A program made the position numbers and the translations under genes. A stretch of 64,000 bases of DNA from Lachnospiraceae bacterium AC2029 (GTDB lineage: Bacteria > Bacillota > Clostridia > Lachnospirales > Lachnospiraceae), in assembly GCA_000703065.1 (NCBI GenBank), contig JNLK01000001.1, positions 3,556,001 to 3,620,000 on the forward strand, in the 5' to 3' direction. The notes under the pieces are model-generated. The model did no database searches, was not told the origin of the DNA, and saw nothing but the letters and a program-made list of their open reading frames with translations. Shown here piece by piece: positions 23,147 through 45,028 of the stretch (position 1 is its first letter; every line of letters begins with the position of its first letter).

Positions 23147-24841
23147 ATGAGGACGGATTCGGAGGAATATCAGGACATGGCAATCTGGAATCCCTGGCAT
23201 GGGTGTAAAAAACTGAGTCCCGGATGTGCGAATTGCTATGTCTACAGAAGGGATGAAAGCGTCGGGAAGGATGCAAGTATTGTATCGAAAACAGGTGATT
23301 ATGACTTCCCGCTGAAAAGAAACAGGAAGAAAGAGTATAAGCTCTCGTCGGATGACGGAGTGGTCTATACCTGTATGACATCTGATTTCTTCCTGGAGGA
23401 AGCGGATGAATGGAGGCAGGGCTGCTGGGATATGATCCGGGAGCGAAGGGATCTTTCGTTCCATATCATTACAAAACGGATCGATCGGTTTGAGCAGTGC
23501 ATACCACCGGACTGGGGAGACGGATGGGAGCATGTAACGATCTGCAGTACCTGCGAGAATCAGGATAGGGCGGATTACAGGCTGCCGATCCTACTGGAGC
23601 TTCCCATCCGCCATAGGCGGATCATTTCCGAGCCGATGCTGGAAGAAATCCATTTTGAGAAGTATCTGGAAACCGGACTGATTGAGCAGGTTACCTGTGG
23701 CGGCGAATCCGGTCCGAATGCGCGACCCTGTGATTTCCGGTGGATCCAGGAGGTTCGTCGGGAATGTATCCGGCAGGGCGTCCCATTTTACTTCAAGCAG
23801 ACAGGCACGGTCTTTTTGATGAACGGGAAGACCTATCACATAGACCGTAAAGATCAGATGTCACAGGCCAGAAAATCAGGGCTCAGTTATACGCCGGGGA
23901 CGGGATCGGCGGATGAAGTGTCTTATCAACTCCCGAGGAGAGATGATTTGTTTCAGCGGCTCAGGAACTCTGACTTCCGCAGCAGGTTTCATCTTTCGGA
24001 GAAGGATCTGACATATGTGTCCGAAAAAGGAATGGATACGATACGGAGTCATGCGACCGATTTTGTAGAGAAGCGGCTGGCCCCTGAGAATCCTGAGAAT
24101 GACGGGAAGCAGACTCCGATGAAGGGACATCCGGTCTTTATCGCACAGCATGCCACGGCCTGTTGCTGCAGAAGCTGTCTGGAGAAGTGGCATCATATTC
24201 CTGCCGGGAAGGCGCTCACGAAGAAAGAGCAGTATTATGTTGTTGATGTTCTGATGGACTGGATCAGGAGAGAGTGCGGATCGGCAGGGGAGACCTGGGA
24301 CAGGAAAGCGTCCTATCGGTACATCGTATTTGATGTGGAGACCCCGAATTACAGGAATGACCGCATGAGTGCTATCGGCATTTCCGTGATCGAGGATGGG
24401 GTGATCACAAAGGAGTTCTTCTCCTATATTGATCCGGAGACATATTTCGATGAGTTCAATACGCAGCTGACCGGAATCGATGAAGAAGTGGTACGTGGAA
24501 AACCTACATTTCCGGAGATATGGAAAGAAATCGAACCGATCATGAGCAGTGGAATCCTGGTGGCTCACAACGCCGTCTTTGATCTGAGTGTGCTGAAGGC
24601 ATGCCTGAAGGATTATGAGATCGAATGGAGACCCTCCGTGAAATATGCCTGCACGGTGCGGATCGGTCGGAAGCTGCTGCCGGAGATGAAACATAACCTG
24701 GATGTTATGTGTGATTATTATGGTATTGCCCTGGATCATCATAAGGCGGACAGCGACAGCCATGCCTGTGCAGAGATCCTGCTCAGGTATTTTGAGACCG
24801 GGGTGGATGAAAAGAGCATTATCAGGACGTATACATTCTAA
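23147..24841 (+). CDS. DUF5131 - DUF4186 - DEDDh exonuclease fusion protein
   Basis: A 564-residue three-part protein. Residues ~1-240 resemble DUF5131 (phage Gp37/Gp68 family), with the metal-type cysteine motif WNPWHGCKKLSPGCANCY (C20, C27, C30), LSFHIITKRIDRF, CGGESGPNARPCD and PFYFKQTGT. Residues ~255-385 resemble DUF4186 (HPVFIAQHATACCCRSCLEKWH). Residues ~392-564 are a 3'-5' exonuclease of the DnaQ type, with FDVETPN, AHNAVFDLSVL and HKADSDSHAC supplying the DEDDh acids. AGAAGGGAT precedes the ATG. The gene stands alone, divergent from the HTH-receiver gene. DUF5131 is thought to be radical-SAM-like, which is not proven here. A nucleic-acid repair or modification role is an inference. 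Confidence 0.8.
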   Translation: MRTDSEEYQDMAIWNPWHGCKKLSPGCANCYVYRRDESVGKDASIVSKTGDYDFPLKRNRKKEYKLSSDDGVVYTCMTSDFFLEEADEWRQGCWDMIRERRDLSFHIITKRIDRFEQCIPPDWGDGWEHVTICSTCENQDRADYRLPILLELPIRHRRIISEPMLEEIHFEKYLETGLIEQVTCGGESGPNARPCDFRWIQEVRRECIRQGVPFYFKQTGTVFLMNGKTYHIDRKDQMSQARKSGLSYTPGTGSADEVSYQLPRRDDLFQRLRNSDFRSRFHLSEKDLTYVSEKGMDTIRSHATDFVEKRLAPENPENDGKQTPMKGHPVFIAQHATACCCRSCLEKWHHIPAGKALTKKEQYYVVDVLMDWIRRECGSAGETWDRKASYRYIVFDVETPNYRNDRMSAIGISVIEDGVITKEFFSYIDPETYFDEFNTQLTGIDEEVVRGKPTFPEIWKEIEPIMSSGILVAHNAVFDLSVLKACLKDYEIEWRPSVKYACTVRIGRKLLPEMKHNLDVMCDYYGIALDHHKADSDSHACAEILLRYFETGVDEKSIIRTYTF

Positions 24842-25055: not shown

Positions 25056-25187
25056 TTGACAGCATTAGTTTGGATAAGTGAAAATCCTGACCGACCGACC
25101 GAGGCAAACTGCTCTGACGTAGCAGTTTCTTTTGATGTGAATAATGATATGAATTATGCTCCATCTGATACGTGGTTTACTATGTGA
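25056..25187 (+). CDS. Possible 43-residue leader peptide
   Basis: A short frame starting at TTG 25056, nine bases after a strong CAGGAGGAA. It reads LTALVWISENPDRPTEANCS and ends APSDTWFTM at TGA 25185-25187. Its stop touches the first base of the 3' arm of the following terminator, so a ribosome on the last codons would cover the 5' arm and prevent the hairpin. That layout is the hallmark of a translation-sensing attenuator. A second small hairpin (25106-25113/25121-25128, with CTTTT) lies inside the frame. The peptide matches nothing I recognise. Confidence 0.45.
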   Translation: MTALVWISENPDRPTEANCSDVAVSFDVNNDMNYAPSDTWFTM

Positions 25188-25209
25188 TCAGATGGGGCTT
25201 TTATTATTT
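25158..25209 (+). terminator. Terminator/attenuator in the M23 gene leader
   Basis: GCTCCATCTGAT (25158-25169) and ATCAGATGGGGC (25187-25198) form a 12-bp stem with one G-U pair, a 17-base loop and the tail TTTTATTATTT. It stands between the leader ORF and the M23 gene, so transcription of the M23 gene from the upstream promoter needs read-through. Confidence 0.75.
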
Positions 25210-25229
25210 CAAGAGGAGGGCGAGTGTTT

Positions 25230-25262
25230 ATGAAAATGAATTGCAGGAGGTGGAAGCTATGA
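25230..25262 (+). CDS. 10-residue coupling ORF overlapping the M23 start
   Basis: ATG at 25230, after AGAGGAGGG, encodes MKMNCRRWKL and its TGA overlaps the M23 start as ATGA (25259-25262). The last codons contain the GCAGGAGGTGG site of the M23 gene. This fits translational coupling. Confidence 0.4.
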   Translation: MKMNCRRWKL

Positions 25263-27343
25263 GTAGAAAGCTGAGAATTTCAATGGCGTTGGTTCTAACT
25301 GTGTTGTTGATGATGTTCATGGCTATTTGGTCGTTGGATGCTTTTGCATCTGAAAACTACCTATGGCCGAATGATTCACAGTCAACTAGCAGAGGATTTG
25401 AAAATGGGCATTTGGGGCAGGATATCACTGGTAGTTATGGCAGTAATGTGTATGCCACAAAATCAGGAACCGTAATCAAGGTTTATAGCGGATGTGGGAA
25501 TATTGACGCGGCAAGTACCAAAGTAAATTGCCCTTGCTCAAGTTGCTCGCCGAATTGTGGAACTTACTATCAATCTGAATATGGGATTTATGCATGTAAT
25601 TATGGATATGGAAATGGAGTTGTTATTCAACATGATGACGGAAGTGGTTTTTCCATGTATGCTCATATGTCCAGTATCTCTGTTTCTCAGGACCAAAAGG
25701 TTTCTCAGGGACAAGTGATTGGGAAAGTGGGTTCTTCTGGTAATTCATCTGGAACTCATCTGCACTTTGAGTTGTCGAGCGGCGGATGGATGAGTGGTAA
25801 TTATTTCGAGCCGGGTGGAAGTTCATTTAACAACAATAAAGATGTGATACCATATATTTATGGTTCGCCCGACACCACCGCTCCGACTATCTCCAAGAAC
25901 GTTGTGAAAAGAAGTATTTCTCCTACTGAATTCGCGGTTGACGCTACTGTAACTGATAATGTTGGTGTTAGTCGTGTATGGGCGATCGTTTGGCCTGAAA
26001 CCACCACCTGGGAGAACGGAAAGCAGATTGATGCTGTTAGCCAGGGTGGTAATCGTTACACTGTATCTATTCCGACGAAGGATTTTAACAATTATGTCGG
26101 CAAATACCAGGTGGATCTTTATGCGACGGATGCAGCAGGAAATACAGGCTGGTTATTAGGGACTATAGTCGACAGGACTCCGCCTACACTTACAGACTTC
26201 CAGACGCATGTTGTTTCGAAGAGTAAATTCACTGTAGAGGTTGATGTAACTGATGATGAAGCGGTGGATCGTGTATGGTGTGTTATTTGGCCTGATAACA
26301 CCACCTGGGAAAATGGCAAACAGCCGGAAATGACATCTCTGGATGGAAAGCATTTTACTCTCGAGGTGACTTCGAGCCAGTTCGATGGTTATTCGGGTAT
26401 TTATCATGTTGATGTATATGCATCGGATAAGGTTGGTAATTATAACTACATTTTACACAACACAACGACTCCTTTATCTGCAGGGTGTGAAAACCATATA
26501 TGGAATGATGGCGAGGTTACAGCCGAGCCTACCTGCACGGAAACAGGAACAAAGCTATTTACATGCACTTCATGCGGTGAAACCAAAACCGAGACGATCC
26601 CTGCAAAGGGTCATTCCTGGGATGAAGGCGTCGTAGTGACACCTGCTTCTCTTTCAGCTGACGGTGTAAAACGGTTCACCTGTGAGCAATGCAAACTCAA
26701 AAAGAAAAGAACCTTCAAGCTTCCTGCCGGATGGTATGAGGAAGATGGATACAAGTACTATATCACAGCCAAGCATGTTCCGGTAACCGGAGCAAAGACC
26801 ATCGAGAATAAGGTTTACTACTTTGACGAAACTGGAAAGATGCATACAGGATGGCTGGACCTGAAAGGAAGAAGGTATTATTTCGGCAAAGATGGCAGCA
26901 TGGTAACCGGTGTAAAGAAGATTGAAGGCAAGACCTATTATTTTAATAACAAGGGAATCATGCAGGTTGGCTGGCTTGAACTTGATGGAAATAAGTATTT
27001 CCTGGATAAAAATGGTGTCGTTCAAACCGGTTGGAAGAAAATTGATGGCACTTACTACTGTTTCAGCAGTAAGGGTATTATGATGACCGGTTGGACGGAG
27101 TATAAGGGTAATAAGTACTATCTGAATGAAGACGGAACCCTGCATACTGGCTGGATAAAGATCGACGGTAAATGGTATCGGTTCAGCACGAAAGGAGCGA
27201 TGATCATCGGGTGGACCCAGTATAAAAATAATCGTTATTACCTGGATGAGACAGGAGCAATGGTTAAGAACTGTAAGATAGTGATCGACGGGCAGGAGTA
27301 TATATTTGACAAGAACGGAGTTTGTCAGAATCCATCAAACTAA
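25259..27343 (+). CDS. Secreted M23 peptidase with GBS_Bsp-like and cell-wall repeat domains
   Basis: A secreted cell-wall endopeptidase of about 694 residues. A signal peptide (LVLTVLLMMFMAIWSLDAFA) precedes the LytM/M23 domain, with zinc ligands in ENGHLGQDI and GTHLHFEL. Two GBS_Bsp-like repeats follow (DNVGVSRVWAIVWP, DDEAVDRVWCVIWP), then a Cys-pair module (FTCTSCGETK, FTCEQCKLKK), then about nine YG-type wall-binding repeats (GWLELDGNKYFLDKNGVVQ). The ATG at 25259 has GCAGGAGGTGG before it; an earlier frame from 25172 lies inside the terminator. The gene looks more AT-rich than its neighbours. It may remodel the producer's wall or attack other cells. Confidence 0.9.
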   Translation: MSRKLRISMALVLTVLLMMFMAIWSLDAFASENYLWPNDSQSTSRGFENGHLGQDITGSYGSNVYATKSGTVIKVYSGCGNIDAASTKVNCPCSSCSPNCGTYYQSEYGIYACNYGYGNGVVIQHDDGSGFSMYAHMSSISVSQDQKVSQGQVIGKVGSSGNSSGTHLHFELSSGGWMSGNYFEPGGSSFNNNKDVIPYIYGSPDTTAPTISKNVVKRSISPTEFAVDATVTDNVGVSRVWAIVWPETTTWENGKQIDAVSQGGNRYTVSIPTKDFNNYVGKYQVDLYATDAAGNTGWLLGTIVDRTPPTLTDFQTHVVSKSKFTVEVDVTDDEAVDRVWCVIWPDNTTWENGKQPEMTSLDGKHFTLEVTSSQFDGYSGIYHVDVYASDKVGNYNYILHNTTTPLSAGCENHIWNDGEVTAEPTCTETGTKLFTCTSCGETKTETIPAKGHSWDEGVVVTPASLSADGVKRFTCEQCKLKKKRTFKLPAGWYEEDGYKYYITAKHVPVTGAKTIENKVYYFDETGKMHTGWLDLKGRRYYFGKDGSMVTGVKKIEGKTYYFNNKGIMQVGWLELDGNKYFLDKNGVVQTGWKKIDGTYYCFSSKGIMMTGWTEYKGNKYYLNEDGTLHTGWIKIDGKWYRFSTKGAMIIGWTQYKNNRYYLDETGAMVKNCKIVIDGQEYIFDKNGVCQNPSN

Positions 27344-27357
27344 AGAATAATCTGAGA

Positions 27358-27395
27358 TCCCTCTGCATGGCATTGACATGCAGGGGGATTTTTTT
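27358..27395 (+). terminator. Terminator of the M23 gene
   Basis: TCCCTCTGCATG (27358-27369) and CATGCAGGGGGA (27377-27388), with a 7-base loop and seven Ts. Confidence 0.88.
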
Positions 27396-27478
27396 CCATA
27401 ATACTTTAGGCTGAAGGTTGGATTATTTACGGCCTCATTTATATCGTTATATAACGCTCATTTTATATCGTTTTTTCA

Positions 27479-27507
27479 TTGACAAATTTCGTTACAAGGA
27501 ATACAAT
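27479..27507 (+). promoter_or_regulatory. Strong promoter of the riboswitch operon
   Basis: TTGACA (27479-27484), exactly 17 bases, TACAAT (27502-27507). The start of transcription should fall near 27514, about seven bases before the aptamer. Confidence 0.82.
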
Positions 27508-27520
27508 ATTACTATATTAA

Positions 27521-27598
27521 TCAAGATTCAGCAAACCCGGGGAAACCCGGCGGCGCAAAGCTCCAGAACCTGTAAAATGGTAGTCAGCTGCAACTTGT
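27521..27598 (+). ncRNA. Cyclic-di-GMP-I (GEMM-I) riboswitch aptamer
   Basis: Binds cyclic di-GMP in the nascent mRNA. The conserved core is present in order: GCAAACC, a CCGGGGAAACCCGG helix with GNRA-type GAAA loop, GGCGCAAAGC, then ATGGTAG. The closing helix pairs CAAG and CAGC at 27522-27532 with GCTG and CTTG at 27587-27597. The second helix base pairing is less clear, and the tetraloop-receptor side is only partly recognisable. A strong terminator follows, so ligand binding probably switches transcription of the SPFH-TIR operon. Confidence 0.85.
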
Positions 27599-27603
27599 GA
27601 TTT

Positions 27604-27654
27604 CGCATCAGGGCGACCATAGGTGGTCGTTTTTGATGCGCTTTTTGTTTTTTT
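27604..27654 (+). terminator. Riboswitch expression-platform terminator
   Basis: An outer stem CGCATCA/TGATGCG (27604-27610/27634-27640) encloses an inner stem CGACCA/TGGTCG (27614-27619/27624-27629) and ends in CTTTTTGTTTTTTT. It begins six bases after the aptamer, the usual spacing for a transcription-attenuating riboswitch. Confidence 0.85.
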
Positions 27655-27668
27655 GAGGGGAAAGCAAT

Positions 27669-27914
27669 ATGGATGAATATTTAACGATCAAAGAGATAGC
27701 GGAGAAGTGGGAACTAACGCCTCGAATGGTTCAGAAAATGTGCGCAGACGGGCGGATCCCCGGAGCATCCAAATTCGGAAGAGACTGGGCCATTCCAAAG
27801 GATGCGGAGAAGCCGCTGGATGGAAGAAAGACAACCGGCGCTTATGTGAATTGGAGACGAAAAGGTAAAAAAGAAAATACAAATAACGAAAATATTCAAG
27901 GAGGGAATGTATAA
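27669..27914 (+). CDS. Small HTH protein (excisionase/MerR-like fold)
   Basis: An 81-residue DNA-binding protein, first gene after the riboswitch. The HTH_17-type domain is YLTIKEIAEKWELTPRMVQKM, GRIPGASKFGRDWAIP; the C-terminus is basic and Asn-rich. The ATG follows GAGGGGAAAGC. It overlaps the next gene's ribosome site (GGAGGGAATG) and so is probably co-translated with the SPFH gene. It may regulate the operon. No integrase is nearby, so it is unlikely to be a real excisionase. Confidence 0.8.
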   Translation: MDEYLTIKEIAEKWELTPRMVQKMCADGRIPGASKFGRDWAIPKDAEKPLDGRKTTGAYVNWRRKGKKENTNNENIQGGNV

Positions 27915-29390
27915 ATGGCACTGTCAGAAGTAATCAAATATGAGGGCGATAATTCAACATTTATTTGGAAGTATCCCAATGAAGATTTTAACAACATGAC
28001 CGAACTGATCGTTCATGAGAGTCAGGAAGCAATCTTCTTCGCAAATGGTCAGGCGGCTGATACATTTGGCCCCGGAAGATACAGACTGGATTCTTCCAAT
28101 ATCCCCATTTTAACCAGGCTGGTCAACAAGGTGACGGGCGTAAGCGTATTCCATTGTGAGGTCTACTTCATCAATAAGACCGTTCAGATGGCCATTAAGT
28201 GGGGGACCGATTCCAAGGTCAGATTTATAGAGCCGACACTGGGTGTACCGGTAGAACTCGGCGCATCCGGAGAAATGAATCTGGCAGTGTCCGATGGCAG
28301 GAAGCTTCTGATCAAGCTTGTAGGAACCATGAACGGTATTGCGTGGGGATCTGACGGTGCTGGATTTACCAAGTCACTCCAGATGTCCTTCAGACCCCTG
28401 ATCTCCACGGAGGTTAAAGCGAATCTTTCATCTGCGATCAAACAACAGAATATAGATATTGTTGAAGTGGATGAACATCTTATGGAACTGTCAGAGGCTC
28501 TTCGGGTAAAGCTCCTTCCCGGATTTGAAGAGTACGGACTCACGATCCCTCAGTTCTATCTGTCAAATGTAGTTCTTCCGGAAAGTGATCCGAATTTCAA
28601 GAGGCTTCGTGAACTTCATACGATTTCACTTCAGAAACGTATGGCTCAGGCGGATGCAGAGTTGAAGACAACGCAGGCTGAATCCAGAGCCGCCTATATG
28701 ACTGCTGAAGCCCGGTATAAAGCGCAGATCAAGGCCGCAGAGAGAGAGGCCGTTCTTGAGGCTCAGACGACTGAGACTGAGATCGCAAAGAGAGAAGCTG
28801 AGAGACAGCTGATCCAGGCACAGGCGGATGCACAGGCTGCACAGATGGCAGGACTGGCGGAAGCTACTGTTATGCAGGCTCAGGGATATAATAAGAAAGA
28901 TGTGCTGCAGGCAGACGTTCAGAAAGCATATGCTGAGGGTATCGGAAATATGGGACCGGCCATTTCCGGTGGTGGCGGAGGCAGCTCCGTCATGGGTGAT
29001 ATGATCGGACTTGGCGTCGGAATGGCAGCTATGGGTGCCATGGCTCCGCAGGTCGGCGAGATGATGAAGGGCTTCGGCATGGGAACGTCGAATAATACGG
29101 AAAATGCGGAAAATGCGACTTCGCCACAGACTTCCAATACTTCACAGTCCATAGTATGCGCAAAATGCGGAAATATACTCCCGTCAAATGCCAAGTTCTG
29201 TATGGAATGCGGAACGAAGGTTGAACTGTTGGCCGATAATGAAATGATCTGTCCGATATGCGGAAGGAAGACCCCTAAGGGAAAGTTCTGCATGGAATGC
29301 GGGAATCCCCTGATCAATAAATGTCCGAATTGCGGGGCTGAGGTTCCGCTGGGCGGAAAATTCTGTCTGGAGTGTGGAACAAAACTGTAA
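27915..29390 (+). CDS. SPFH-domain protein with C-terminal zinc ribbons (virion-core-like, YdjI type)
   Basis: A 491-residue scaffold protein. The N-terminal two-thirds is SPFH/band-7 like (ESQEAIFFANGQAADTFGPG, KFRR-type signals absent), with a long coiled region rich in Ala/Glu/Gln (AEREAVLEAQTTETEIAKRE). A Gly/Met-rich stretch follows (GGGGGSSVMGDMIGLGVGMA), then three double-Cys zinc ribbons (CAKCGN...CMECG, CPICGR...CMECG, CPNCGA...CLECG). No membrane helix is obvious. Such proteins are annotated as virion-core-like and are often found with the membrane and TIR-type genes that follow here. It may assemble at the membrane. It overlaps the preceding stop closely. Confidence 0.87.
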   Translation: MALSEVIKYEGDNSTFIWKYPNEDFNNMTELIVHESQEAIFFANGQAADTFGPGRYRLDSSNIPILTRLVNKVTGVSVFHCEVYFINKTVQMAIKWGTDSKVRFIEPTLGVPVELGASGEMNLAVSDGRKLLIKLVGTMNGIAWGSDGAGFTKSLQMSFRPLISTEVKANLSSAIKQQNIDIVEVDEHLMELSEALRVKLLPGFEEYGLTIPQFYLSNVVLPESDPNFKRLRELHTISLQKRMAQADAELKTTQAESRAAYMTAEARYKAQIKAAEREAVLEAQTTETEIAKREAERQLIQAQADAQAAQMAGLAEATVMQAQGYNKKDVLQADVQKAYAEGIGNMGPAISGGGGGSSVMGDMIGLGVGMAAMGAMAPQVGEMMKGFGMGTSNNTENAENATSPQTSNTSQSIVCAKCGNILPSNAKFCMECGTKVELLADNEMICPICGRKTPKGKFCMECGNPLINKCPNCGAEVPLGGKFCLECGTKL

Positions 29391-29414
29391 ATTCATAGAG
29401 AGAGGACCAAGAAT

Positions 29415-30125
29415 ATGGGAAGACAGATTAAGTATTTTATAATGTGGCTGGCAGGTGTGGGACTTTTTAACCTCATATGCTTTTTGCCGGCGTTAGAGAA
29501 TGAAAGAACAGGCAATCAGTCCGGAAATTTCTGGACGATCTATGGACTGGTAATGCTGGCGTTTGTTCTCCATCTCATTTTCTCATGTATTGCTCTTGCA
29601 GAAAAGAATAAAGAAAAGAGGATCCTGAATACGCCGTTAATAATCATTTGTACGATCGATCTCCTCCTGATGATCATTGCCGGGATTGTATGTATGGCAG
29701 TGAGCTCCATGCCCGGTTGGTTGGGTATTGTCATCTGTTATGGGCTGTTATTCCTGTCTGTTCTTTTCTTCCTTGGCGCAAAAGCCGTGGGAGAAACCAC
29801 CGCAGAGGCAAATCACGAGCTGAACAGAAAGACATATTCATTCCGTATTTTTACTGACAGAGCGCAGGAACTGATATCCATGGCAGATACACCTGAAAAG
29901 AAGGAGATCGCTCAGTCGGTATACGATAAGCTCAGATACAGCGATATGGTTTCTGATCCCCGGTTGGCAGATGACGAATTCCAGATCAATGAGAAACTGA
30001 ACCAGCTGTATGGCGGGTTCCAGGGCATGGGCAATGTTCAAAGCCTTCAGCAGACTGCAAATGATCTGATCATTATAGTGGATAGAAGAAATAACAAGTG
30101 TAAAGAGTTAAAAAGACAGGTGTAA
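29415..30125 (+). CDS. Integral membrane protein of unknown function
   Basis: A 236-residue protein that I do not recognise. Four hydrophobic segments are visible in the first 125 residues (YFIMWLAGVGLFNLICFL; IYGLVMLAFVLHLIFSCIAL; LIIICTIDLLLMIIAGIVCMA; WLGIVICYGLLFLSVLFFLG). The remaining ~110 residues are soluble and helical (ISMADTPEKKEIAQSVYDKL, LNQLYGGFQG), probably cytoplasmic. It sits between the SPFH gene and the TIR gene with short gaps, so it likely belongs to the same complex or response. Confidence 0.8.
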   Translation: MGRQIKYFIMWLAGVGLFNLICFLPALENERTGNQSGNFWTIYGLVMLAFVLHLIFSCIALAEKNKEKRILNTPLIIICTIDLLLMIIAGIVCMAVSSMPGWLGIVICYGLLFLSVLFFLGAKAVGETTAEANHELNRKTYSFRIFTDRAQELISMADTPEKKEIAQSVYDKLRYSDMVSDPRLADDEFQINEKLNQLYGGFQGMGNVQSLQQTANDLIIIVDRRNNKCKELKRQV

Positions 30126-30157
30126 ACTGCGCGTTATGAAGGACGAGGGTGCATAAA

Positions 30158-32234
30158 ATGGCTATATTCAAGTGTAAAATGTGTGGGGGAGAGCTTCTGA
30201 TCTCTGAGGGGATGACGGTTTGCGAGTGTGCATACTGTGGTACAGTCCAGACACTTCCCAAGCTGGAAGACGGAAAGCGGGAGAATCTGTATGACAGAGC
30301 CAATCATTTCCGGAGGAATAATGATTACGATAAGGCGATGTCCATCTATGAACAGATCCTGACTGAGGATACGACGGATGCCGAGGCTTACTGGTCCATC
30401 GTGCTCTGCCGCTATGGTATTGAGTATGTGGAGGATCCTGCAACACATAAGAGGATTCCCACGGTCAACCGCGCTCAGTATAAATCCATTTACTCCGACG
30501 AGGATTACAAGTCCGCCATCGAACATGCGGACATGATCCAGAGACAGGTCTACGAGGCGGAGGCAAAAACCATCGATGATATCCAGAAGGGAATCCTGGC
30601 GATCTCGAACAAGGAAAAGCCCTTTGATGTCTTTATCTGCTATAAGGAAACAGATGAAAATGGTAAGCGGACCCGGGATTCTGTAATAGCGAACGACATG
30701 TATCATCAGCTTGAGAAGGAAGGGTTTAAGACCTTTTTCGCAGCCATCACCCTGGAAGGCAAGCTTGGTACTGCTTTTGAGCCGTACATTTTTGCAGCGT
30801 TGAACAGTGCAAAGGTTATGATCGTCCTTGGTACGAAACCGGAGTATTTCGTTGCACCCTGGGTAAAGAATGAGTGGAGTCGTTTCCTGGCGATCATCAA
30901 GAATGATTCCAGCAAGATCCTCATCCCCGCATACCGAGACATGGATCCCTATGAACTGCCGGAGGAGTTCTCTTTCCTGCAGGCACAGGACATGGGGAAG
31001 ATCGGATTCATGAATGATATCATTCATGGGATCAAAAAGGTGCTGGTAAAAGAGAAGGAGAAAGCAGCACCTCAGGAAAAGATAACACGCAGCGTATCCA
31101 TCGGTTCAAAAACAGATGCTGATACGCTTTTGGAGCGTGCATTCCTGTTCCTTAATGCGGGCAATTGGGAGAATGCAACGGTTTACTGTGATAAGGTTCT
31201 GGATGTTGACCCCGGAAATGCAAAGGCATATCTCGGAAAACTGCTTGCATCCAAAAAAACTGAGGAATCAATCAGATCTTTCGGGCCTGAATGAAGTGTT
31301 GTCAACCAACCCGTTATTCAAATCAGCATATACAAATGCGGATGAGGCTCTGAAAAAGGAACTGGATCAGTACGTTGAGTCCAGTATAGAAAACACAGTG
31401 TCCTATGTTACTGAACAGGCGGCTAAAGCCACGGATGAAAGCGATTATCTCGCTTTGATTCAACAGCTTCAGATGAGCAGTGGGTTTGAAAAGATTGACA
31501 CGCTGATTCAGGAACTGACGGAAAGGTATAACCTTCTCCATGCAGAAAATGAGTATGCAAAGGCATGTGAAATTCTGAATCGTGCAAGAACGGAATTGGA
31601 TTATCATAATGCAGCGAAGATCCTTAGGGCGATTGATTGGTATGGCGATGCGGCAAACCTCGCCGTTCAGTGTGATGAGCAGGAAAAGAGTCTTGCGAAA
31701 GAAAGCGGGATGTGTGCTATCTGCAGAAGCGCTCCGGGAACCACCATGTTTATTCCACGGAATCAGGATATAAAATGCTGCGGCAACTGTTTCTCGCGAC
31801 TTTCCGCCCTTCAGAACAATATGGGGCAGGACAATCAGGTTGCGCGTAATTCCTATACATTTCTTAAAACTGCGGTTGAGCAGGTTATGACCTTTTCCGC
31901 AGCGATCGACAGAGTAAATGGGTTCATTGGTAAATATGAAGCGTCACTGCCGGAGATCTACGGAAAGAAAGAGGAAGAGACGGCCAGAACCTCACAACCC
32001 AATACCAACGATTTGTCAGGTCCCTTCACCGTTGAATATGATAATAAGGAATTTGAATATGATGTCCAGGTTGTCATTGATACTCCCACAGGTGGCGTTG
32101 ATAATGAAATGCTGAAATTCATCCTCGATAAGTATTCGGCCGATGGCTGGAAGCTGCATTCCATTATGAGGGATTCGAGGGATAGCGCAGCCGGTCAGGT
32201 TATAGTGGTATTTGAAAGACGATATCAGCATTGA
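30158..32234 (+). pseudogene. Zinc-ribbon/TPR/TIR protein interrupted by a frameshift at an A7 tract
   Basis: One gene split into two frames. The first (30158 to about 31290) has an N-terminal zinc ribbon (CKMCGGELL...CECAYCGT), a TPR-like stretch (RRNNDYDKAMSIYEQILTED) and a TIR domain (FDVFICYKETDE; WVKNEW, with Glu in the position of the TIR catalytic Glu). It then passes CCAAAAAAAC at 31251-31260 and ends. The second frame, from 31260 to 32234, continues the protein (SGLNEVLSTNPLFKSAYTN, a Cys-rich ribbon CAICRS...CCGNC, and a DUF4177-like C-terminus). With six instead of seven As the frames would join. The ATG at 30158 follows GAGGG. It may be a real mutation, a slippage site or an assembly error. 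TIR proteins of this type occur widely in gut Clostridia; NADase activity is inferred only. Confidence 0.82.
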
Positions 32235-44001: not shown

Positions 44002-45028
44002 CAATAGATGGCTCAAGAATAGAATACTCCCCGTGTTGATATGCATAAGCCTGGTGATACTTTTATTTCCGGCGAAAACATTTGCCAGGGATTCATTAAC
44101 CAATCTGAATACCGATGTTACGGATAAAAAGTCCTTTGCCGAATATCTGGGGTTGAATCTGACAAATGAATCAGTGATAAGGTGGATCGAGGATAATACC
44201 AATAACGGATTAAATTATGCCGGAGCCGCATATTATGGATATAGAAAGATAAAATGGTGGAGATGTTATAATATAAATGACGACGGGAGCCAGAAAACCG
44301 GCAATCAGACCGGCTCCGGATATAATTGTACCGGCTTTGTCTGGTCGGTATATTATTATACGCATTGGAAAAATAAAGGTTATTATACTAACTCCTGTGA
44401 CAGGACAAATAAAATGATCACATACTTAACTGATCTGTATGGATCATTTCAGGGACAGGATAATCTGAGTCATACCGGATGGTTTGCAAGATGGGCGAAC
44501 AACAATGCGGATAAGATCGATCATTATCACTGGAATAATCTGAAGGATGCTGCCGAGGTTCAGACCAGGCTGAAAAATGCGGAATCAGAAGGTAAAATTC
44601 AACCCGGTGATCTGATTATTTACTGGAATGATAACGACCGTAATGACATTCATTCGGCGATTTATGCCGGAGCCGGTTATCAGTATGAGAAAAATAATGA
44701 TCACCCGTTGACTCTTAAAGCGGAAGCCGGTGCTGTCTCATATAATACAAATGTGTTTGTTTTTCCGCTGAAAAGAACCGGTTGGCTGCAAAACGCCGAT
44801 AGAATATGGTATTATGTATTTCCGGACGGAACCATGGCACGATCCGAGTATGTCAATGGGTATTGGCTGAATAAGAACGGAACATGGACATATAAAAAAA
44901 GAGCCGGCTGGAAGCATAATAAAACCGGATGGTGGTATGGTGATTCAACCGGCTGGTATGCAAAAAATCAATCATTGAAGATCGATCGGAAAATATACCG
45001 TTTTGATAAAAAAGGGTATTTGTACTGA
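43985..45028 (+). CDS. Secreted NlpC/P60-like cysteine hydrolase with cell-wall repeat
   Basis: A secreted protein of 347 residues. The signal peptide (ILPVLICISLVILLFPAKTFA) leads to a CHAP/NlpC-like region with a candidate catalytic Cys in SGYNCTGFVWSVYYY (C115) and His in NDIHSAIYAGAGY. The C-terminus carries degenerate wall-binding repeats (WYYVFPDGTMARSEYVNG, GWWYGDSTGWYAKN, YRFDKKGY). The sequence looks more AT-rich than its neighbours and the gene begins inside an RsbW relic, so it was probably inserted there. Peptidoglycan amidase or endopeptidase activity is likely. Confidence 0.8.
   Translation: MKRMLSNRWLKNRILPVLICISLVILLFPAKTFARDSLTNLNTDVTDKKSFAEYLGLNLTNESVIRWIEDNTNNGLNYAGAAYYGYRKIKWWRCYNINDDGSQKTGNQTGSGYNCTGFVWSVYYYTHWKNKGYYTNSCDRTNKMITYLTDLYGSFQGQDNLSHTGWFARWANNNADKIDHYHWNNLKDAAEVQTRLKNAESEGKIQPGDLIIYWNDNDRNDIHSAIYAGAGYQYEKNNDHPLTLKAEAGAVSYNTNVFVFPLKRTGWLQNADRIWYYVFPDGTMARSEYVNGYWLNKNGTWTYKKRAGWKHNKTGWWYGDSTGWYAKNQSLKIDRKIYRFDKKGYLY

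Follow-up and report, generated by a model that had tools for sequence, protein, structure and literature searches.

Introduction

Known riboswitches of the cyclic di-GMP type I family (c-di-GMP-I, or GEMM-I; Rfam RF01051) act on genes for motility, adhesion, pili and the cell surface. Here we describe a member of this family that lies in a stretch of 64,000 nucleotides (nt) of Lachnospiraceae bacterium AC2029 (contig JNLK01000001.1, positions 3556001-3620000; hereafter the window) and leads an operon for an SPFH-domain protein, a membrane protein and a TIR-domain protein. The genome, one contig of 3.86 Mb, is G000 in our set of 61 genomes of the genus. Like other RF01051 riboswitches, it combines an aptamer of the family sequence and structure with a terminator as expression platform; what sets it apart is the SPFH-membrane-TIR operon that follows. 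The parts are of known kinds and their combination is new. On balance, we think it probable that the riboswitch and its transcription terminator set the expression of an immune- or conflict-like module. Sensing of c-di-GMP appears to be coupled to a module that is widespread, the coupling being found so far in one genus.

The nearest precedent is in C. difficile, where the riboswitches cdi1_4 and cdi1_5 are associated with antitoxin RNAs of prophage type I toxin-antitoxin loci, according to PMC6563280. There, too, a c-di-GMP-I riboswitch of a member of the Clostridia sits beside conflict-type genes, whereas the operon described here encodes proteins that had hardly any SPFH or TIR relatives in those phage, plasmid and viral collections that were searched. 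Flotillin/SPFH-NfeD operons likewise place an SPFH gene beside a membrane protein gene; however, the partner membrane protein here has no NfeD match in Pfam, and TIR genes follow it. The vWA-, GTPase- and other NTP-dependent conflict systems of PMC7159879 have zinc ribbons, tetratricopeptide repeats (TPRs), TIR effectors and interchangeable effector domains in common with this operon, but no vWA, MoxR or GTPase gene occurs in the operon; SPFH appears in that paper a single time, among the references. As in Thoeris and other TIR NADase defence systems, the operon has a TIR domain, here with an invariant glutamate, and the SIR2-type genes of two scanned cassettes (see below) are a further likeness. 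In contrast to Thoeris, the match to ThcB4 reached 24.3 bits against a cut-off of 220, that to ThsB had an E value of 0.0031, no ThsA was found among the operon genes scanned, and an SPFH-membrane core stands in its place.

The sequence-only reading that preceded this work held that, to its knowledge, c-di-GMP control of such a gene set had not been described. In agreement, searches of the open-licence literature gave no paper on a c-di-GMP riboswitch with a TIR domain or on one of type I with Lachnospiraceae, and no title or opening of an abstract that describes a module joining SPFH (Band 7, stomatin) with TIR; accounts outside this literature may exist.

The riboswitch and its operon

The elements of the locus are as follows, in window coordinates.

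27357-27396, + strand: terminator-like repeat at the end of the upstream M23 peptidase/choline-binding gene (inverted repeat, then a T run, by eye)
27479-27507, + strand: sigma-70-type promoter, TTGACA-17-TACAAT, 11 of 12 consensus matches
27520-27595, + strand: c-di-GMP-I (GEMM-I) riboswitch aptamer (RF01051, 43.4 bits, E 3.5e-5)
27604-27654, + strand: expression platform, a terminator hairpin (27604-27640) with T runs (from folds and sequence)
27669-27914, + strand: HTH_17 (excisionase-type) helix-turn-helix (HTH) protein, 81 amino acids (aa; PF12728, E 1.2e-8)
27915-29390, + strand: SPFH/Band-7 protein with C-terminal zinc ribbons, 491 aa (Band_7_1, PF13421, E 1.2e-36; Zn_Ribbon_1; DZR)
29415-30125, + strand: membrane protein, 236 aa, about four transmembrane helices and a helical C-terminus (by eye and from the AlphaFold model)
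30158-31294, + strand: zinc ribbon (ZnR)-TPR-TIR-TPR protein, first reading frame, with the whole TIR domain (TIR_2, E 1.2e-10)
31281-32234, + strand: rest of the TIR gene in a different frame, a C-terminal region with a DUF4177-like end (DUF4177, E 5.8e-5, below cut-off)

A c-di-GMP-I aptamer had been proposed from the letters, to be checked by a covariance-model search; that search aligned it over model positions 1-87 of 87 and above the gathering threshold of 35 bits, and it is the sole Rfam match at this threshold within the window. The near-consensus promoter is also present as proposed, and promoters of such quality are not rare by chance in the promoter scan (10 seen in 5.2 kb against 8.1 expected). 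The predicted terminator was recovered from the folds and the sequence, with T runs to 27654 and upstream of the first start codon; a simple terminator scan did not list the hairpin. The HTH, SPFH/zinc-ribbon and membrane genes are open reading frames (ORFs) as claimed, with Pfam families for the first two. The membrane protein matched no Pfam family above cut-off and no PDB fold at E<=0.001; its AlphaFold model has a predicted local distance difference test score (pLDDT) of 93.3, and residues D177 and R225 are invariant in 47 of 47 aligned sequences (chosen from 76).

Recurrence of the riboswitch on the module

A full SPFH gene (E<=1e-40) was found in 11 of the 61 genus genomes. In four of these 11, a c-di-GMP-I aptamer stands just before the operon on the same strand:

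this locus, 27520-27595, + strand
G041, L132:9238-9320, - strand
G007, L133:8327-8410, - strand
G022, L136:7745-7837, + strand

The distance from the aptamer to the first called gene is 66 to 130 nt, and a terminator hairpin follows the aptamer in each of the four leaders. This recurrence is not random: the 11 genomes contain 60 riboswitches, from which about 0.04 chance cases would be expected on a transcription-unit basis against four seen (P about 4e-8), and without this locus the count is three of ten (P 3.9e-6). Both values assume independent loci, an assumption that does not fully hold. No HTH_17-type ORF lies between riboswitch and SPFH gene in G041 or G022. An SPFH paralogue (L124:9319-10548) has three riboswitches at a distance of 3 to 8 kb; it was set aside as a further case, as these riboswitches are downstream of it and are directed towards other genes.

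The genus loci that lack the riboswitch offer a comparison. A divergent Cro-like HTH gene stands upstream of SPFH in four of these seven (G059, G012, G004 and G028) and in none of the four riboswitch loci, while G014, G053 and G055 have neither element; the hidden Markov models used were built from genus loci, that for the Cro-like HTH from three of the four loci with the gene. From this distribution, it seems that the riboswitch takes the place of a regulatory protein within this part of the family.

A conserved module with variable genes

Gene order was parsed in 88 of 91 loci, comprising the best 80 of 141 named SPFH relatives, ten genus loci and this locus; L059 (same contig as L132) and L072 and L110 (SPFH ORF not picked up) were left out. 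The membrane gene was within the next two ORFs after SPFH in 73 of the 88 loci. A TIR gene was in the downstream run after SPFH in 69 and anywhere in the locus in 77, and many loci hold several TIR copies. Among the 61 genus genomes, the TIR protein (E<=1e-80) occurs in nine, all of them within the 11 that carry SPFH and on the same contig as SPFH. Because of this gene order and co-occurrence, SPFH, membrane protein and TIR are one unit of patchy distribution. The sequence-only reading had looked to a survey of gene order in other Clostridia: the module proved widespread in this class, but the riboswitch was found on it in one genus only. In the viral collection there were two SPFH relatives, one of them full length, and searches of plasmid and phage records at E 1e-20 and 1e-10 gave no match to the first-frame TIR protein; the module thus seems to be carried only rarely on mobile elements, as judged from the collections searched.

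Variable ORFs lie in the interval from the membrane gene to the TIR gene, or separate one TIR gene from another. We scanned 20 of these (out of 28 listed, picked from 116), and ten had a Pfam family over cut-off:

SIR2_2 (L049, L061)
FRG (L063, L137)
RES (L109)
CAP12-PCTIR_TIR (L116)
AAA_21, AbiEii type (L093)
DUF2971 (L138)
DUF4365 (L065)
23S_rRNA_IVP (L069)

The SIR2, RES and TIR families include NAD-consuming toxins or effectors. Because the cassettes hold SIR2, FRG, RES, CAP12-type TIR and AbiEii-type genes, a conflict role appears likelier than membrane upkeep alone. The immune-like character suggested earlier is strengthened by these effector-type cassettes and by the co-occurrence of TIR with SPFH.

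The other nine riboswitches of the genome bear on an alternative, that the operon is a system of envelope maintenance or surface assembly, in which the TIR/TPR protein would be a signalling adaptor and the riboswitch would co-regulate it with surface proteins. Seven of the nine stand before genes for proteins in which an export signal was seen by eye; choline-binding, CHAP or leucine-rich repeat (LRR) domains occur in several of these proteins. SPFH proteins are known membrane organisers. However, the patchy presence of the module (nine of 61 genomes for TIR), the several TIR copies in many loci and the interchangeable cassette genes resemble a conflict system and not housekeeping, and we consider this alternative unlikely, although it is the strongest of those we weighed. 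One of the two remaining riboswitches precedes a membrane-type ORF. Behind the ninth (44652-44737, minus strand) lie genes for vWA, PP2C and kinase-FHA proteins (L130:338-6238, G000:C1, minus strand), in an operon that also encodes choline-binding proteins and small zinc-ribbon-like ORFs, the PP2C match being just over cut-off. The combination of vWA, PP2C and kinase-FHA is described for one group of conflict systems in PMC7159879.

The TIR protein

The first frame of the TIR gene encodes a zinc ribbon, a TPR, the whole TIR domain and one further TPR. In searches of the PDB with its model (pLDDT 88.5), the two top matches overall were designed TPR proteins, and the TIR domain matched MAL (E 9.9e-4; TM-score by target 0.77), AbTir (E 1.8e-3; 0.75) and the SPARTA TIR (E 2.1e-2). 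Together with the TIR_2 match, these identify the domain as having the TIR fold; AbTir is a bacterial NADase. Residue Glu208 is invariant in 61 of 61 aligned relatives (chosen from 106), and we take it, from spacing and not from superposition, to be the counterpart of the SARM1/AbTir catalytic-type glutamate. The protein is a predicted NAD-cleaving enzyme.

A single ZnR-TPR-TIR gene had been read here from the letters. Its domains are present, but it is not one frame: the gene is open over 30158-31294 and resumes in a different frame to 32234, the break falling within a run of A near 31254 or beside it. In G041 (696 aa) and G007, the orthologues are intact single frames, and the second frame shares 54% identity with the C-terminal portion of the G041 protein and 51% with G007a. 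The break may be a mutation, slippage or a sequence error, all three being compatible with what is seen. A programmed frameshift was considered and dropped; the site is not conserved in the intact G041 gene.

Counter-evidence, direction of control and ligand

Several results weigh against control of a conflict module by c-di-GMP, and they concern its distribution, its recognition by existing models, the state of this locus and the folding and ligand contacts of the aptamer. With respect to distribution, seven of the 11 genus loci have no module-linked aptamer, all seven being counted although the contig ends 448 nt (G012) and 313 nt (G053) upstream of SPFH in two of them. The genus model found no aptamer in 79 of the 80 named loci, several of them short upstream, and the exception, L059, is the G041 contig. 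No riboswitch was found in any of 23 family loci outside the genus. This restriction to the genus is partly due to host range, since any RF01051 match was present in 5 of the 20 genomes that carry the best named loci (one being G041's own record) compared to at least 53 of 61 in the genus, where stricter filters lost weak matches. As to recognition, no module protein scored over the NCBIfam cut-off, and none of the four operon proteins gave a strong match to a known anti-phage system in PADLOC 2023: the HTH and TIR proteins had weak matches (the best to PDC-S66, E 2.4e-5; mad1, 0.0018; and ThsB, as above), and the SPFH and membrane proteins had none. The ten other cassette ORFs scanned had no Pfam family.

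As to the locus itself, the aptamer is the weakest of the ten RF01051 matches in the genome, and with the TIR frame broken, the full-length product may be absent in this genome. These two features would be expected if the operon were in decay and the riboswitch ahead of it degraded or merely incidental. However, the aptamer is still over the family cut-off (a genus model, R1, scores it at 75.3 bits, the aptamer belonging to its training set), it shares flank similarity with the G007 and G041 leaders, the HTH, SPFH and membrane genes are open, and the first TIR frame keeps the whole TIR domain. Decay is the least probable of the explanations that we weighed.

Type I riboswitches in C. difficile exert OFF-type control. 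In all four leaders the terminator stem begins 7 to 20 nt past the aptamer end, so that the two are free of overlap, and this layout fits an operon that ligand would switch OFF; we hold this direction to be fairly probable. Folding does not establish it, since the antiterminator pairing is no better than that of shuffled arms: among 500 shuffles, 357 were as high for this leader, 39 for G041, 163 for G007 and 66 for G022. Cross pairing of aptamer and terminator is attractive in the G041, G007 and G022 leaders, with little in the leader of this locus.

The remaining point against c-di-GMP control is that the aptamer has A at a site that we take, by numbering, to match G20 of Vc2, where G is usual and not defining. 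An A at G20 widens recognition towards cyclic GMP-AMP (cGAMP). The same A is found in the G022 aptamer and in three other aptamers of this genome, and among the other 14 aptamers aligned, six have it, so that it counts as natural variation in the family. In the G041 and G007 aptamers, the site is G. The genome has 40 GGDEF-domain matches. The motif was readable in 27 of 36 fetched loci, and all 27 have GHxxGD with the canonical aspartate, the position at which cGAMP-making Hypr enzymes have serine. No SMODS nucleotidyltransferase match was found in the genome, the search for synthases covering GGDEF and SMODS. Therefore c-di-GMP is the cyclic dinucleotide for which this genome has likely synthases. 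With the GGDEF loci canonical and no SMODS match, we judged cGAMP less likely as the ligand.

Taken together, the A at this site and the lack of a significant antiterminator would suit an ON switch, or an aptamer that senses mainly another cyclic dinucleotide such as 3',3'-cGAMP, with ligand inducing the operon. The G in two of the module-linked aptamers, the canonical GGDEF loci (nine of the 36 being unreadable), the missing SMODS match and the separation of terminator from aptamer all speak against it, and we regard induction by ligand as improbable. Our preferred reading remains that c-di-GMP sets expression of the operon through the terminator.

Origin of the leader and the core

The operon is a mosaic. 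Compared to G007, the HTH (65%) and TIR (80%) proteins are close in identity, while the SPFH (43%) and membrane (21%) proteins are far apart; compared to G041, the figures are 82% for SPFH, 55% for the membrane protein and 80% for TIR. In the SPFH tree (112 rows; L054, L059 and L080 left out), this locus and G041 form one clade and G007 and G022 another. Within the genus, TIRs of the type found here (81% identity or more) are confined to G000, G041 and G007, and the other 15 genus TIR matches are 48-52% identical to it. Since HTH and TIR are close to those of G007 and the SPFH and membrane proteins are not, leader, HTH and TIR look like a set that has been combined with two SPFH-membrane cores, or the core may have been swapped inside it.

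The leader flanks were compared by shuffling, with 80 nt before the aptamer as the upstream part. Against G007, 0 of 500 shuffles were as high on either side, and against G041, one and two of 500. The G007 and G041 leaders showed no likeness to each other upstream (253 of 500; 173 of 500 reversed) and a weak one downstream (35 and 58 of 500). The downstream flank of this locus also matches all three G022 leaders and two others of its own genome (0 to 1 of 500), probably owing to T runs; because the downstream test is not clean, the upstream flank is the better witness. On these comparisons, the leader link is firm between this locus and G007, fair between this locus and G041, and not seen between G007 and G041. 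Independent gains of the riboswitch, which require three state changes on the SPFH tree, were at first favoured and were dropped after this comparison; a shared leader is likely, with the G007-G041 comparison speaking against it. The G022 leader is similar to the two next to it (3 and 0 of 500 shuffles as high upstream, 0 and 0 downstream), one of them standing before a gene whose protein shows zinc-ribbon motifs by eye, and it appears to stand apart. G022 has three similar c-di-GMP-I riboswitches within 5.3 kb (L136:2548-7837), which precede a small ORF and a BspA-type LRR gene, the ORF with zinc-ribbon motifs, and the SPFH operon.

Neighbouring genes

Directly upstream of the operon is an M23 peptidase gene with choline-binding repeats (25172-27343), which the terminator-like repeat at 27357-27396, its own, separates from the operon. 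The gene is similar in kind to several riboswitch-led genes of the genome and has no Rfam aptamer. Further upstream, an ORF at 23147-24841 joins DUF5131, DUF4186 and an RNase_T exonuclease domain and matches PADLOC candidate models at E 2.9e-19 to 2.4e-29. In G041, the gene after the TIR gene (L132:2849-4783) matches the PADLOC candidate HEC-07 (E 1.4e-29).

Proposed mechanism and implications

A working scheme can be drawn from these parts. The SPFH/zinc-ribbon protein would form a membrane scaffold next to the membrane protein. A disturbance at the membrane, such as phage entry or membrane damage, would then release or activate the cytosolic ZnR-TPR-TIR protein, whose TIR domain would cleave NAD or make an NAD-derived signal and so stop growth of the cell. 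Because such an enzyme would be costly, its transcription would be gated. At high c-di-GMP, the bound aptamer would leave the terminator free and the operon off, and at low c-di-GMP, in motile, planktonic cells, transcription would read through.

A bolder proposal, which we offer tentatively, is that c-di-GMP is an arming signal of innate immunity in the genus. The leader-HTH cassette and its matching TIR would combine with different SPFH-membrane cores and replace the Cro-like regulator, and a suicidal, NAD-targeting defence would be active while cells swim and shut down once they settle. The second riboswitch, ahead of the vWA, PP2C and kinase operon, likewise leads genes of a type linked to conflict systems.

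Whatever its control, the widespread SPFH-membrane-TIR module with its effector slot is unrecognised by the PADLOC 2023 and NCBIfam models scanned. If the proposed control holds, an RNA sensor of the decision between motile and sessile life would directly gate a predicted NAD-depleting immune module, and the locus would provide a simple, testable case of immunity scheduled by lifestyle. The findings suggest that a self-harming defence may be raised or lowered as this gut-type bacterium switches between swimming and settled life.

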